This document shows positions 18,191-58,342 of a stretch of DNA of 64,000 bases, piece after piece. Below the pieces are notes generated by a model. It was not told the origin of the DNA. It made no database searches and saw only the letters and a list, made by a program, of their open reading frames with translations. Origin of the DNA: Maribacter flavus (GTDB lineage Bacteria > Bacteroidota > Bacteroidia > Flavobacteriales > Flavobacteriaceae); NCBI RefSeq assembly GCF_008386635.1, contig NZ_VUOE01000002.1:881848-945847 (forward strand). The letters are read 5' to 3'. A program made the translations under genes and the position numbers. The stretch's first letter is position 1. Every line of letters begins with the position of its first letter.

Positions 18191-18287
18191 ATGAAACCCT
18201 CATCGAGGGATTTGAGTGATTAACTAAATTCCTCTTCCAAAGGAGGCAATTAAGAATCAATATGTCGCATTTAATTTAAACGTATGA
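18191..18287 (+). repeat. Dispersed intergenic element, copy A
   Basis: About 97 bases that align with 44126-44223: shared blocks are ATGAAACCC, AGGGATTTG, TTAAGAATCAA and TTAAAC.TATGA in the same order and nearly the same spacing (35 and 36 bases between the second and third blocks). A short hairpin CCCTC-ATC-GAGGG lies at the left end. The right end reaches the start of the M28 peptidase gene. Confidence 0.6.
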
Positions 18288-19843
18288 GAAAATTAGTTTG
18301 GTTGGTGGCGGGCCTTTTGGCCGCATGTAATTCCTCACAGAAGACAGTAAGCACGGAAACCATTTCAAAAGGACCCGTCGACCCTAAAGTCTATGCGGAA
18401 ACCATTACAGAAATTGAATTGAAGGAGCATTTGTACATTTACGCTTCCGATGAATTTGAAGGCCGGGAAACCGGACAACCCGGACAAAAAAAGGCCATTG
18501 AATATCTAAAGGCGGAATATGAAAATTTGGAGATTCCTCCCGCCCAGTCCAATGGCGATTACTTTCAGAAAGTACCCATTGAAATCAGCCAAATCCCCGT
18601 TGGCAAGTTAAGCATCGACACTTCCGATTATCTTTTGGGCGAGCACGTACTTACCTTTTCAAAAGCCCAATCCGGGGACAATGAAATTGTATATGTAGGA
18701 TACGGTATCGAGGAAGAAAATTATTCAGATTTCCAGGGAATGGACATCGCCGGCAAGTTGGTATTGATGAAAACCGGGGAGCCCATGAACTCGGACGGTA
18801 CGTACACGATTTCCGGTACCTCTGAAAAATCGATTTGGAGCAATATGTCGGAATCACTTGGAAAACGCTTCGAATTGGCCGAAGACAAGGGAGCTATTGG
18901 CGTACTTTACTACGATGCCGATAATTACCCAAGATTTAAAAGTCGGTTCGACTATATGCGAAACAGTAATAGTGGCAGAATGAGCCTTAAGGACCTACAG
19001 GAAAATGACTTTTCAAGTCTGTTTATTGATGGTACGTTGGCAAAAGCGATTTTACCATCTATAGAAACAGACCATAAGCCCAAGGAATTGGACTCAAAAG
19101 CAACATTGGCATTTGAAAGTTCCAACGAGGAGGTAGATTCGGAGAACGTAGTGGCATTTATACAGGGAAGCAAGAAACCCAATGAATATATTATCATTTC
19201 ATCGCATTTGGACCATATAGGAATTACCGATGAGGGCGAGATCAACAATGGCGCGGACGATGACGGGTCTGGAACCGTGGCGCTTTTGGAAATTGCGGAA
19301 GCCTTTAAAAAAGCTCAGGAAGACGGAAATGGACCGAGTAGGTCTGTGGTCTTCTTGCACGTGACCGGAGAAGAAAAGGGCCTTTTGGGTTCTGAATATT
19401 ACACCGATGTAGAGCCCATTTTTCCCCTAGGCCAGACAGTTGCGAATTTGAACATTGACATGGTGGGAAGAATAGACCCTAAGCGGGATGGGGATAGAAA
19501 TTATATCTACCTCATTGGTTCCGATAAATTGAGTACGGAACTACATGAGCTTTCCGAGGAAGTGAATTCCAAATACACCCAATTGGAATTGGATTATACC
19601 TATAACGATGAAAACGACCCCAATCGATTTTATTACCGAAGCGATCACTACAATTTTGCCAAAAACAACATTCCCATAATTTTCTATTTTAACGGAACAC
19701 ATGACGATTATCACAGGCCTAGTGACACTCCGGACAAAATAAACTATGATTTATTGGAGAACAGAACCCGACTGATTTTCTATACGGCATGGGAATTGGC
19801 AAACAGGGCCAATCCCGTTGTTGTCGATAAGGCTTCAGATTAA
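18284..19843 (+). CDS. M28-family zinc aminopeptidase, lipoprotein
   Basis: 519 residues; lipobox LLAAC (Cys15). A PA-type insert spans about 130-290. The di-zinc site is seen in order: SSHLDHIG (His and Asp), NGADDDGSG (bridging Asp), VTGEEKGLLGS (catalytic Glu and ligand Glu), NIDMVGR (Asp) and the final His in THDDYHRPSDTPDKI. M28 enzymes cleave N-terminal residues from peptides. Probably faces the periplasm or surface. The start ATG sits at the right edge of a dispersed repeat; a strong terminator follows the stop. Confidence 0.92.
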   Translation: MRKLVWLVAGLLAACNSSQKTVSTETISKGPVDPKVYAETITEIELKEHLYIYASDEFEGRETGQPGQKKAIEYLKAEYENLEIPPAQSNGDYFQKVPIEISQIPVGKLSIDTSDYLLGEHVLTFSKAQSGDNEIVYVGYGIEEENYSDFQGMDIAGKLVLMKTGEPMNSDGTYTISGTSEKSIWSNMSESLGKRFELAEDKGAIGVLYYDADNYPRFKSRFDYMRNSNSGRMSLKDLQENDFSSLFIDGTLAKAILPSIETDHKPKELDSKATLAFESSNEEVDSENVVAFIQGSKKPNEYIIISSHLDHIGITDEGEINNGADDDGSGTVALLEIAEAFKKAQEDGNGPSRSVVFLHVTGEEKGLLGSEYYTDVEPIFPLGQTVANLNIDMVGRIDPKRDGDRNYIYLIGSDKLSTELHELSEEVNSKYTQLELDYTYNDENDPNRFYYRSDHYNFAKNNIPIIFYFNGTHDDYHRPSDTPDKINYDLLENRTRLIFYTAWELANRANPVVVDKASD

Positions 19844-19863
19844 GGAAGTTTAAGATTTAAGTT

Positions 19864-19893
19864 AAAGGCCGATAGTTATTATCGGCCTTTTTC
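19864..19893 (+). terminator. Rho-independent terminator of the M28 peptidase gene
   Basis: An 11-bp perfect stem AAAGGCCGATA (19864-19874) with TATCGGCCTTT (19880-19890), a 5-base loop and a T-run, 21 bases after the stop. Confidence 0.92.
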
Positions 19894-19911
19894 TTTTAAA
19901 AAGTAAAGACT

Positions 19912-20291
19912 GGAATCTGGGCATTCCTTGCTCTACACAGGCTTCTTACCCTACATTCAGGATACAAAAAAGCCCCGGACGTATCATGTACAGGGCGAGT
20001 TTAAAATGCTTTTTGGGTGGAAGACCGGGTTCACCTCGGCCGGAATCAATGGATTCCTTGCTCGGCACAGGCTTCTCACCCTACATTCAGGATACAAAAA
20101 GCCCCGGACATATCATGTACAGGGCGAGTTTAAAATGCTTTTTGGGTGGAAGACCGGGTTCACCTCAGCCGGAATCAATGGATTCCTTGCTCGGCACAGG
20201 CTTCTCACCCTACATTCAGGATACAAAAAAGCCCCGGACATATCATGTACAGGGCGAGTTTAAAATGCTTTTTGGGTGGAAGACCGGGTTC
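19912..20291 (-). repeat. Tandem ~130-bp terminal repeats of tRNA-His
   Basis: Nearly three tandem units, period 129-130 bp, read on the minus strand downstream of tRNA-His. Every unit holds the last 18 bases of the tRNA region (plus 20274-20291 in the gene, repeated at 20144-20161 and 20015-20032), the same trailer, the same terminator hairpin (20225-20255, 20096-20125, 19966-19996) and a spacer with the inverted repeat GGAATC-cattg-type-GATTCC. Units differ by only a few bases outside the first, which is a little more diverged. The leftmost copy lacks a tRNA-end beyond 19912. Confidence 0.9.
20225..20255 (-). terminator. tRNA-His terminator (first of three repeated copies)
   Basis: On the minus strand GCCCTG pairs with CGGGGC (one G-U), an inner ACAT/ATGT stem closes on GAT, and six T follow. 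It starts 19 bases after the tRNA 3' end. Confidence 0.8.
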
Positions 20292-20349
20292 GAACCGGCG
20301 ACCTCTGGAACCACAATCCAGCGCTCTAACCAGCTGAGCTACAACCACC
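20275..20349 (-). tRNA. tRNA-His (GTG)
   Basis: Full cloverleaf on the minus strand: D-arm GCTC/GAGC, anticodon stem CTGGA/TCCAG with loop TTGTGGT (anticodon GTG) and T-arm GCCGG-TTCGAAC-CCGGT. The extra G at -1 (20349) faces C73, the histidine identity pair. CCA is not encoded. In the acceptor stem, positions 5-68 and 6-67 read as U-U, which is odd (GTGGTTG against CTTCCAC). Confidence 0.95.
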
Positions 20350-20364
20350 ATTTATAAGCGGTGG

Positions 20365-20395
20365 CAAAGGTAATTTTTTTTCTTCTACTTATCAA
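20365..20395 (-). promoter_or_regulatory. tRNA-His promoter
   Basis: Minus-strand TTG (plus 20393-20395), 20-base spacer and TACCTTTG (plus 20365-20372): a good match to the Bacteroidota TTG-N(17-23)-TAnnTTTG promoter, 16 bases before the tRNA. Confidence 0.75.
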
Positions 20396-27060: not shown

Positions 27061-28350
27061 ATGAGGACCCAATTACTTGCAATTCTCCTCCTTTTTTCGT
27101 TAATCATTTCCTGTAAAAATACCGCGACGGTAGTTCCCCAAAAATCAACTTCAGGTTATCAAGGACAGGGTGCAAGCCCTATTGTACCTACCGTAAACAG
27201 ACCGGTACAAAAGCAATGGAAAGGCATCTGGTCCATGGATAATCAAACCTACTTTTCGAACGATTTTGATGGTGCCCGGTTGAACGGTGTGGCCGAAGAC
27301 GGTAACGACCATTACACCATTTGGATAACTGCAGAGAATACGCCCATAAACGTGAGTCCTTGGTATTCCTTCAAAGTTTGGACCGGTAAGCCCAGGGAAA
27401 TCACCATTAAACTTTCCTATCAGGATTCAAGAAGTAGGTATTATCCCAAAATCAGTTCAGATGGTATCCATTTTAAGGTTTTGGACAGTACCAACTACAA
27501 GGTAATAAATCCAGGCGAAGGGGAGTTTGGCATCAAAGCGGCACCCGAGTTTGCTGAAATTACCTTAACCATTGGTAATGAACCCGTTTGGATATCGGCC
27601 CAAGAACTTTATACTTCCAAAAGAGTGCAGGAATGGGTAGATTCACTCTCCGTTAAACCCTTCATTACCAATTATGAAATTGGGAAATCCCACGAAAACC
27701 GTGCTATCCAGCTCATGGAGATCAAGGAATATCCAAGTACCAAGAAAGCATTGATGATCATCTCCAGACAACACCCGCCGGAAGTTACTGGATTCCTTGT
27801 GATGAAATCCTTTATGGAAACCATATCCAGTGATACGGAACAGGCAAAGACTTTCAGGGAAAAGTTTGACATTTTCGCCGTACCGCTTATGAATCCCGAT
27901 GGCGTGGACAACGGACATTGGCGTCATAACATGGGCGGTATTGACCTGAATCGCGATTGGGAAAATTTCAATCAGCCGGAAACAAGAAGCGTGCGCGATT
28001 TTCTGAACAAAAAAAATGAAGAAGGCTATGAATTTGTTTTTGGTGCCGATTTTCACTCTACTTGGGACGATATCTATTATCCAATTGACAGCACGGTCAT
28101 CGGACAAAAAGGAAAAATCGTTTACGATTGGATCGAAAGCATTTCAACCCGACTCCCTCAAAAAAGAACGAATATTGCTACCTCTGATAAAATCAAACCG
28201 ACCATGGTTTCCAGAAATTACTTTTATGTACACCATGGCATGCCGGCCATCGTTTTTGAACTGGGCGATAACACGCCCCGGGATTTTCTAAAGGAGAAAG
28301 GAAAGGTCGCCGCTGAGGAGATAATGCGGTTGTTGTTGGAGAAGGAATAG
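27061..28350 (+). CDS. M14-family zinc carboxypeptidase, lipoprotein
   Basis: About 429 residues from ATG 27061, chosen because MRTQLLAILLLFSLIISC forms a standard lipoprotein signal (an ATG at 27040 adds 7 residues). An N-terminal beta domain (~40-190) precedes the M14 domain. Zinc and catalytic residues: RQHPPEVTG (HxxE), GGIDLNRDW (substrate Arg), FGADFHSTW (third zinc His) and VFELGDNT (catalytic Glu). Related to Bacteroidota M14 proteins with a Pepdidase_M14_N-type domain. Probably cleaves C-terminal residues or peptidoglycan-derived peptides outside the cytoplasm. Followed by the heptanucleotide repeat. Confidence 0.88.
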   Translation: MRTQLLAILLLFSLIISCKNTATVVPQKSTSGYQGQGASPIVPTVNRPVQKQWKGIWSMDNQTYFSNDFDGARLNGVAEDGNDHYTIWITAENTPINVSPWYSFKVWTGKPREITIKLSYQDSRSRYYPKISSDGIHFKVLDSTNYKVINPGEGEFGIKAAPEFAEITLTIGNEPVWISAQELYTSKRVQEWVDSLSVKPFITNYEIGKSHENRAIQLMEIKEYPSTKKALMIISRQHPPEVTGFLVMKSFMETISSDTEQAKTFREKFDIFAVPLMNPDGVDNGHWRHNMGGIDLNRDWENFNQPETRSVRDFLNKKNEEGYEFVFGADFHSTWDDIYYPIDSTVIGQKGKIVYDWIESISTRLPQKRTNIATSDKIKPTMVSRNYFYVHHGMPAIVFELGDNTPRDFLKEKGKVAAEEIMRLLLEKE

Positions 28351-28358
28351 TTGTTGGC

Positions 28359-28414
28359 TGTTAGCTGTTAGCTGTTAGCTGTTAGCTGTTAGCTGTTAGC
28401 TGTTAGCTGTTAGC
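28359..28414. repeat. Heptanucleotide tandem repeat TGTTAGC x8
   Basis: Eight perfect copies of TGTTAGC in the gap between convergent genes (M14 peptidase and CcsBA), 9 bases after the peptidase stop. A related array with unit TTAGCAG is at 58303-58342. Confidence 0.97.
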
Positions 28415-28618
28415 TAAAAATAGCATCTTTTTAAACCAAACCAACTTTAGCTTAAAAACGAGAAGCAGTATTTTGTGATTTGGAATTTGAGATTTTCTCT
28501 TCTATCCTTTGTTCAATATTGCATGGTTTTGACTATATACCTCCTCCAAGGTCGGTCAAACTATCCATTTTGAATATTCTTCCAGTCGCACCGAGTATCA
28601 ACAACTTCATGATAGCAA

Positions 28619-58302: not shown

Positions 58303-58342
58303 TTAGCAGCTAGCAGTTAGCAGTTAGCAGTTAGCAGTTAGC
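58303..58342. repeat. Heptanucleotide tandem repeat TTAGCAG
   Basis: Five units (one with CTAGCAG) plus a part unit. Differs from the 28359 array (TGTTAGC) by one base in the seven when rotated (GCAGTTA against GCTGTTA). Confidence 0.92.

Follow-up and report, generated by a model that had tools for sequence, protein, structure and literature searches.

RtT-like tandem units behind tRNA-His in Maribacter flavus, and related units behind other tRNA genes of Bacteroidota

To our knowledge, RtT has so far been treated as something peculiar to the tRNA genes of enterobacteria. In E. coli K-12, the tyrV locus holds a 178-bp repeat in 3.1 copies, and Rfam RtT matches occur at four places, three behind tyrV and one between tyrT and tyrV. 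The three tyrV units read GGGGAAGGAT, GAGAAGC, a loop, GAGTA and ATCCTTCCCCCACCACCA, with a 10-bp arm in the register of the units described here; the fourth has the arm GGGGAAGGGT followed by GAGAACC. The E. coli RttR annotation ends at the copy of the tRNA 3' end (the tail copy). A Klebsiella unit between two tRNA-Tyr genes carries AAGAACC, and Salmonella RtT behind tRNA-Pro (AFYI01000003) combines an arm GAGGAT, facing a tail ATCCTC, with GAGAACC and a terminator in every unit.

Mobile DNA offers further comparisons: tRNA-targeting integrases attach at tRNA 3' ends, and IS200/IS605 elements follow a base-pairing guide, the principle on which one of the alternatives weighed below is based. 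REP elements are described as short, dispersed palindromes tagged GTAG or CGTC, the CGTC type also being reported in Bacteroidetes (PMC3733652), and a second source lists rttR in a table of REP-hosting sRNAs (PMC12306157). Our literature search found nothing on RtT-like repeats in Bacteroidota, which is no proof of novelty, most subscription papers being beyond its reach. Here we describe a tandem array behind tRNA-His in a 64,000-nucleotide stretch of the Maribacter flavus genome (the window). The array is probably a Bacteroidota version of the RtT known from E. coli tyrT, with units that would work at the RNA level.

The array behind tRNA-His

The first-pass annotation had described tandem units downstream of tRNA-His that repeat the tRNA's last 18 bases, and we confirmed that this array is real: the 18 bases, GAACCCGGTCTTCCACCC, have minus-strand copies at 20274-20291, 20144-20161 and 20015-20032 and no further place in the window on either strand. 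Three units make up the array, with lengths of 130, 129 and about 121 bp; in each, the 18-base tRNA-His end comes first and a trailer, a terminator hairpin and a palindrome follow (Table 1). Identity among the near-identical units is 97-98%, and Tandem Repeats Finder (TRF) reports a period of 129, 2.8 copies, 97% matches and a score of 696, the next best array in the window scoring 122. A terminator is present in all three units, with 5-6 T after each stem, and the palindrome GGAATCCATTGATTCC is intact in units 1 and 2 (20171-20186 and 20042-20057). Unit 3 is decayed; it reads GGGTAAGAAG.., has an imperfect palindrome, GGAATGCCCAGATTCC (19912-19927), and lacks a final tRNA tail. The terminator hairpin is present in the predicted RNA fold of the array, and is not among the calls of a simple terminator scan. 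Opposite-strand ORFs spanning the array were set aside as presumed by-products of the repeat.

Table 1. Features of the tRNA-His locus, with positions in the window
Feature	Position	Strand	Basis
tRNA-His (GTG), host gene of the array	20274..20348	-	ARAGORN, Rfam
TACCTTTG, fits the Bacteroidota -7 box TAnnTTTG, about 16 nt upstream of the tRNA	20365..20372	-	match to consensus
Unit 1, 130 bp: tRNA tail, trailer, terminator, arm, GAGAAG, palindromic loop	20162..20291	-	R1 match 20143-20220, 48.8 bits
Unit 2, 129 bp, layout as unit 1	20033..20161	-	R1 match 20014-20091, 54.3 bits
Unit 3, degenerate at its end	19912..20032	-	weak R1 match, 11.8 bits, E 0.56
First copy of the tRNA-His 3' end, 18 bases, nt 57/58 to gene end	20144..20161	-	sequence match
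Second copy of the tRNA-His 3' end	20015..20032	-	sequence match
RtT-like core 1: arm GGGT, GAGAAGCCTGTGCCGAG, palindrome, GAGGT; closes on the next tail copy	20162..20210	-	
RtT-like core 2	20033..20081	-	
Terminator hairpin of unit 1, then TTTTTT	20231..20255	-	RNA fold and sequence
Terminator hairpin of unit 2, then TTTTT	20101..20125	-	sequence
Terminator hairpin of unit 3, then TTTTTT	19972..19996	-	sequence
Inverted repeat with T runs, separating the array from the convergent M28 peptidase gene (18284-19843)	19859..19895	.	

The octamer upstream of the tRNA is read against TAnnTTTG, the -7 promoter consensus of Bacteroidota, and the units are described in tRNA nucleotide numbering (nt 58/59 and so on). 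A 272-base array query found no other match in the same genome at E<=0.001, and Rfam scans at gathering and permissive thresholds returned only the tRNA and two chance-level matches. Elsewhere in the window there are two related heptamer arrays, (TAGCTGT)x9.7 at 28348-28415 and (TTAGCAG)x5.7 at 58303-58342, both of which apparently adjoin gene ends on the downstream side.

All that speaks for an assembly artefact is that the copy number of so short a repeat rests on one assembly. An artefact is probably not the explanation, given that a sister species (G002) has one unit at the same place with 94% identity, and units or arrays stand in other assemblies too (G002, G411, G111 and G208); we give this reading next to no credence. 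The first-pass annotation would have read absence of the array from all relatives as a sign of such an artefact, and elements of the same frame in fact lie behind many tRNA genes of Flavobacteriaceae.

Arms that follow the host tRNA, and the reach of the units

All units are laid out alike: first an arm that can pair with the tRNA sequence beginning at nt 59, then GAGAAG, a palindromic loop ending in A, and finally nt 59 to the 3' end of the tRNA itself. Immediately ahead of GAGAAG stands the partner of nt 59, one base further out that of nt 60 and so on, and the final A of the loop corresponds to A58. Arms and tails change together, as in GGGGAGAC/GTCTCCCC for Leu, GGGAGGGAT/ATCCCTCCC for Ser, GAGAC with GTCTC in Leu and Trp units, and GGAC with GTCC in the tRNA-Gln units of G111. 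At one tRNA-Gly locus (L107), pairing extends over 14 nt, T-stem and acceptor strand together; the window arm has only 4 bp of contiguous pairing, plus scattered pairs.

We quantified the rule in two sets of units. For set 1, 68 units were collected and the 9 lacking a clear junction dropped; the remaining 59 reduced to 46 non-redundant units, 45 from Bacteroidota (one of them from the window) and one from E. coli. Among the 45, nt 59 is paired in 43 against a permuted mean of 34.8, nt 63-65 in 77/135 positions against 65.9 (P 0.014), and nt 63-70 in 182/360 against 144.4 (sd 8.7; 0/5000 permutations); the search pattern fixed GGG, so that nt 60-62 are no fair test in this set. Set 2 consists of 61 units taken from loci found by a covariance model (R1, below) that have a tail copy with <=3 mismatches, including two nested or chance GAGAAG strings that we retained. 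Here nt 59-62 are paired in 230/244 positions against 200.8 in permutations (sd 2.9, max 212) and nt 63-70 in 221/488 against 180.1 (sd 9.5; 0/5000). Four of the 61 are also in set 1, two of them window units; removing the four leaves 214/228 and 202/456, again 0/5000. In alignment A1, covariation reaches 0.300 against 0.166 in shuffled alignments (0/500), with slid controls at <=0.145, a score that, like the permutation counts, ignores shared ancestry.

The loops behave differently from the arms. In a comparison of 48 units from 33 genomes, loop similarity is 0.667 for the same tRNA in different genomes and 0.675 where both differ, and 0.730 within one genome (P 0.07); arms thus follow the tRNA and loops do not, and vertical inheritance of loops with the tRNA is unsupported. 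We weighed, and set aside, the idea that GAGAAG facing RA might form something like a kink-turn.

Several features would suit a transcribed hairpin. The pair closing the loop in 29 units is G.U in 15, C-G in 13 and G-C in one. Among non-Watson-Crick cells at nt 59-62 of 91 units, G.T outnumbers A.C by 22 to 6, where permuted tails give 54:37, a modest excess once composition is allowed for. Folding is better than that of shuffles for the units of the window, E. coli and Salmonella and for Gly and Ser units (z of -2.3 to -3.2), and Leu and Met units do not stand out (z about -1); the predicted window fold pairs the tail with GGGUGAGAAG, unlike the family model.

To assess prevalence, we built R1 from 29 units that included neither the window nor E. 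coli; it finds both intact window units (Table 1). At E<=0.01, R1 matched 57/149 sampled Flavobacteriaceae genomes, 50 of them with a full-length match and 7 in the palindrome part only (hand count); at E<=0.001 it matched 19/296 genomes across the phylum. Weaker matches include dispersed palindromes without a tRNA, among them two of the five matches in the M. flavus genome itself. A same-strand tRNA lies <=700 nt upstream of 29/30 loci in the family scan, the thirtieth being at a contig edge and carrying tRNA-Gln tails. For the phylum scan, with a copy of the window (L237) left out, 18/28 loci have such a tRNA. By inspection, 6 of the other 10 carry tail copies with no tRNA nearby: L241, L245, two loci of a single array (L218 and L236) and two at contig edges in a single genome (L223 and L242). 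The remaining four matches, L232-L235, are weak and without a tRNA.

Sequence searches gave a similar distribution. A DNA search with one unit matched 78/397 family genomes, mostly through the tRNA tail only, and recovered the core behind tRNA-Gly (G411, G369, G275), Met (G275), Gln (G253) and His (G142). The exact 21-mer GGGYGAGAAGCCTGTSCCGAG occurs in 46 stretches at 55 places in a collection of 84,980 species genomes (a diverged copy in the M. flavus genome, L074, excluded); all places are labelled Bacteroidota or subgroups, except two contigs of one metagenome-assembled genome (MAG) labelled Patescibacteria. These two (L087, L092) carry tRNA-His-linked 79-bp units, which may reflect transfer or wrong binning. 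Forty-four of the 55 places lie <=700 nt downstream of a same-strand tRNA, 39 of the 44 have a whole or partial tail copy after the motif (local score >=20), and 32 of these copies begin 17-20 nt from the gene end. By inspection, a tail-like sequence follows at 10 of the other 11 places (displaced tails, tRNA-Asn 3' halves, contig edges), and L110 has none. At L074, L086, L119 and L120, tRNA-Asn 3' halves starting near the anticodon loop stand before the motif, as might be expected at the far ends of genomic islands.

In total, the family and phylum genome scans place units behind tRNAs for 12 amino acids: Gln, Thr, Met, Gly, Lys, Leu (two anticodons), Trp, His, Ser, Asn, Ala and Ile, with one case each for Ala and Ile. 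Tandem arrays also occur in other assemblies: G411 has 5 exact motifs, G111 has 4 and a worn one behind tRNA-Gln, and G208 has about 5 units behind tRNA-Trp. Arrays with tRNA-Gln or tRNA-His tails but no tRNA occur in L142 and in L218 and L236. Ahead of both, at the start of L142 and upstream of the array in L218 and L236, stands a nearly identical sequence, CACACAAC..TTTAGG.ATGATCC, which may be the terminus of a mobile element that split the array.

The same frame extends to the enterobacteria. Run unfiltered on the E. coli locus, R1 places the three tyrV units first among 13 matches, aligned across the junction (9.6-10.1 bits, E 0.04-0.05), and of its 27 matches in loci from Klebsiella and Salmonella, five of the best six are tRNA-Tyr RtT units (8.4-10.5 bits); these scores are low for all enterobacterial RtT (8.4-10.5 bits, E 0.04-0.5 in 1.8-8 kb). 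R1 gave no such match on the fourth E. coli unit, between tyrT and tyrV, and no in-register match on two Salmonella tRNA-Pro units. Conversely, the Rfam RtT model (RF00391) had no match at E<=10 in window positions 19880-20360 or the whole genome, and no score reached the Rfam gathering cut-off; we therefore call the array RtT-like and not a member of RF00391. Judged by architecture, the units stand behind a tRNA and end with its 3' end from nt 58/59, the arm is complementary to the tail copy in the E. coli register family-wide (4 contiguous pairs in the window), and GAGAA(G/C) directly follows the arm, as GAGAAG in the two intact window units. The likeness to E. coli tyrT/rtT seen in the first-pass annotation thus extends to the nt 58/59 tail junction, the arm register and GAGAA, all of them common to both. 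By a naive estimate, GAGAA would follow the arm, at the place that the arm fixes in both phyla, by chance in about 1 of 1000 cases for a single locus. The annotation had also supposed an independent origin, which is probably wrong, since a motif and a junction common to both phyla favour a single type of element; we infer from these sequences that Bacteroidota and enterobacterial RtT-type units may be of common origin. With the same design behind many kinds of tRNA and in enterobacteria, the RtT type is probably a widespread tRNA-linked element.

Precise insertion at tRNA 3' ends

Close relatives show what a locus looks like with and without units. A query of the tRNA plus array matched 36/36 genus genomes, mostly by the tRNA alone, and we inspected by eye the 330 nt behind tRNA-His in 30 of the 36. 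A check of tRNA-His loci in relatives had been proposed in the first-pass annotation; several units occur only in M. flavus (G000) among the 30 loci, G002 has one unit, and in G023 a tRNA-His on another contig is followed by a single unit (L063). In G002, the order behind tRNA-His is the unit, a worn tRNA-end copy and a trailer alignable to the one that directly follows tRNA-His in G016, which places the unit precisely at the boundary of tRNA and native trailer. By eye, a possible degenerate older unit stands behind the G016 tRNA-His; R1 has no match in this locus (L005), and we do not count it as a unit.

A second RtT-like unit of the M. flavus genome (G000:C3:370209-370270, L181) lies between tRNA-Thr(TGT) and tRNA-Tyr, inside a tRNA-Thr/Tyr/Gly/Thr cluster. 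The Thr-Tyr region matched in 32/36 genus genomes, and we compared 30 loci: the spacer is 25-29 bp in 26 of them, 141-142 bp in G000, G002 and G016, and 247 bp, a longer and worn version, in G028. The insert is precise and about 116 bp long, ending in a tRNA-Thr tail copy that is followed by the native spacer. In relatives, then, the unit is a precise insertion at the tRNA 3' end that leaves the tRNA intact. Units inside tRNA clusters are, by their position, probably co-transcribed with their tRNAs. Against an RNA role in the window stands the terminator ahead of each hairpin, at which most transcripts should end.

Units might instead be neutral by-products, a REP-like palindrome near a tRNA triggering local duplication of the tRNA end and terminator with neither RNA function nor dedicated mobility. 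Trailer and terminator do look duplicated in single-unit loci (by eye, for example L077, L083, L088, L095 and L098), the trailer that precedes the G002 unit is similar to the native trailer (score 43.5 against a maximum of 42.0 in 1000 shuffles), and sister species differ in copy number. At the Thr locus, however, what precedes the unit has no significant likeness to the native spacer (P 0.19-0.5), a fixed frame (GAGAA, A before the tail, junction) behind many tRNAs in two phyla would not be expected from chance duplications, and the covariation of the arms also speaks against this reading. We consider a neutral origin improbable.

Insertion exactly at the tRNA end would also suit the scar of a lost genomic island or prophage that integrated in the tRNA 3' end and left attachment-site copies. 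A duplicated tRNA 3' end does flank the insert, the tail copies resemble an attachment core of 17-18 bp, and some copies lie, by eye, behind the displaced tRNA 3' halves of L074, L086, L119 and L120. Against this, the inserts hold no gene of note, neither integrase nor cargo, and at about 116-130 bp are too short for an integrase; covarying arms would be unexpected, as would the same small frame behind tRNAs for 12 amino acids. Nor do viral contigs favour a scar: two exact-pattern scans of them gave 0 matches and a third gave two contigs, one of them tRNA-Lys linked, counts on which a viral origin of the units was rejected. All told, a scar is very unlikely. One IMG/VR contig of 52,990 bases listed as viral (L217) has a tRNA-Lys-linked unit near 855.

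Origin of the units and comparison with known systems

Intact units are hairpin modules joined to tRNA genes; their architecture, their covariation with the tRNA, their precise insertion and their tandem copies are observed directly. On the best reading, the unit is an RtT-like hairpin that is transcribed and has its origin in an insertion or a duplication. Transcription would run into the unit past the terminator, or where there is none; tRNA maturation enzymes would process the transcript at the tail copies; and RNAs of unit length would be released. An insertion or duplication event at the tRNA end would create each new unit, after which an array could grow by unequal exchange between near-identical units. 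Unequal exchange, proposed in the first-pass annotation, is plausible for growth from one to three units, given 97-98% identity, but leaves the conserved motif unexplained.

The loop palindrome bears on a further alternative. It resembles a dispersed repeat type, CTGAGCGNAGTCGAAG, found at 13 places in the M. flavus genome with <=3 mismatches (L122-L134), none with a tRNA in its 3-kb locus; the end bases of these palindromes seem to match one another. Small palindromes also stand inside tRNA-end copies (L112 near 5232, L118 near 1703, L120), suggesting insertion into tRNA-derived sequence. The units may be small non-autonomous mobile DNA in which the arm guides to tRNA nt 59-65, the palindrome is the recognised hairpin, and a transposase acting in trans duplicates the tRNA end. 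Precise insertion with a duplicated tail, arms that track the tRNA while loops do not, the 13 dispersed look-alikes and the similar palindrome inside the L112 tail copy (by eye) fit this reading. On the other side, Y1 transposase (PF01797, E<=1e-5) is absent from the M. flavus genome, and over the 149 genomes it occurs in 23/57 positive and 26/92 negative ones (Fisher P 0.15), a comparison covering one transposase family, which gives no clear association of units with REP-associated tyrosine transposases (RAYTs). We regard such mobility as a possibility of lower standing, to be held tentatively.

Returning to the transcribed hairpin, a broader version can be proposed, though we doubt it as matters stand: RtT might be the tip of a cross-phylum, selfish, tRNA-guided class in which a hairpin of 30-60 nt has its host set by an arm against nt 59-65 (at times the acceptor strand), 3'-end insertion duplicates the end while the tRNA survives, and the co-transcribed unit is processed by tRNA enzymes. 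In any case, finding RtT architecture behind the tRNAs of 12 amino acids supplies a testable defining rule and many natural variants, and makes the role of rtT approachable by comparison. Conserved elements in the trailers of essential tRNAs mark a meeting point of tRNA processing, island attachment and small-RNA origin.

Compared with known systems, the unit loop looks like a REP-type short dispersed palindrome, for which the accessible part of the REP source describes no tie to tRNA tails (PMC3733652). As with integrase attachment sites, the tRNA 3' end is duplicated and the tRNA intact after insertion; unlike them, the units (116-130 bp) lack integrase and cargo and have a conserved hairpin frame and a covarying arm. 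E. coli RtT/RttR (RF00391) shares the tandem units behind a tRNA, each ending in the tRNA 3' end from nt 58/59, with GAGAAGC after the arm in 3/4 K-12 units (GAGAACC in the fourth) and GAG(T/GT)A before the tail in the three tyrV units. It differs in its loops, about 90 nt against mostly about 30-55 nt around one palindrome in Bacteroidota, where units stand behind many tRNA types and often carry a terminator per unit at operon ends, and in being an annotated RNA (RttR), the Bacteroidota units being known here from DNA. Salmonella tRNA-Pro RtT has GAGAAC for GAGAAG, a longer multi-hairpin loop and a tail copy from nt 59 after C, and yet its non-Tyr tRNA, its arm/tail pairing and its full terminator per unit reproduce the layout of the window.
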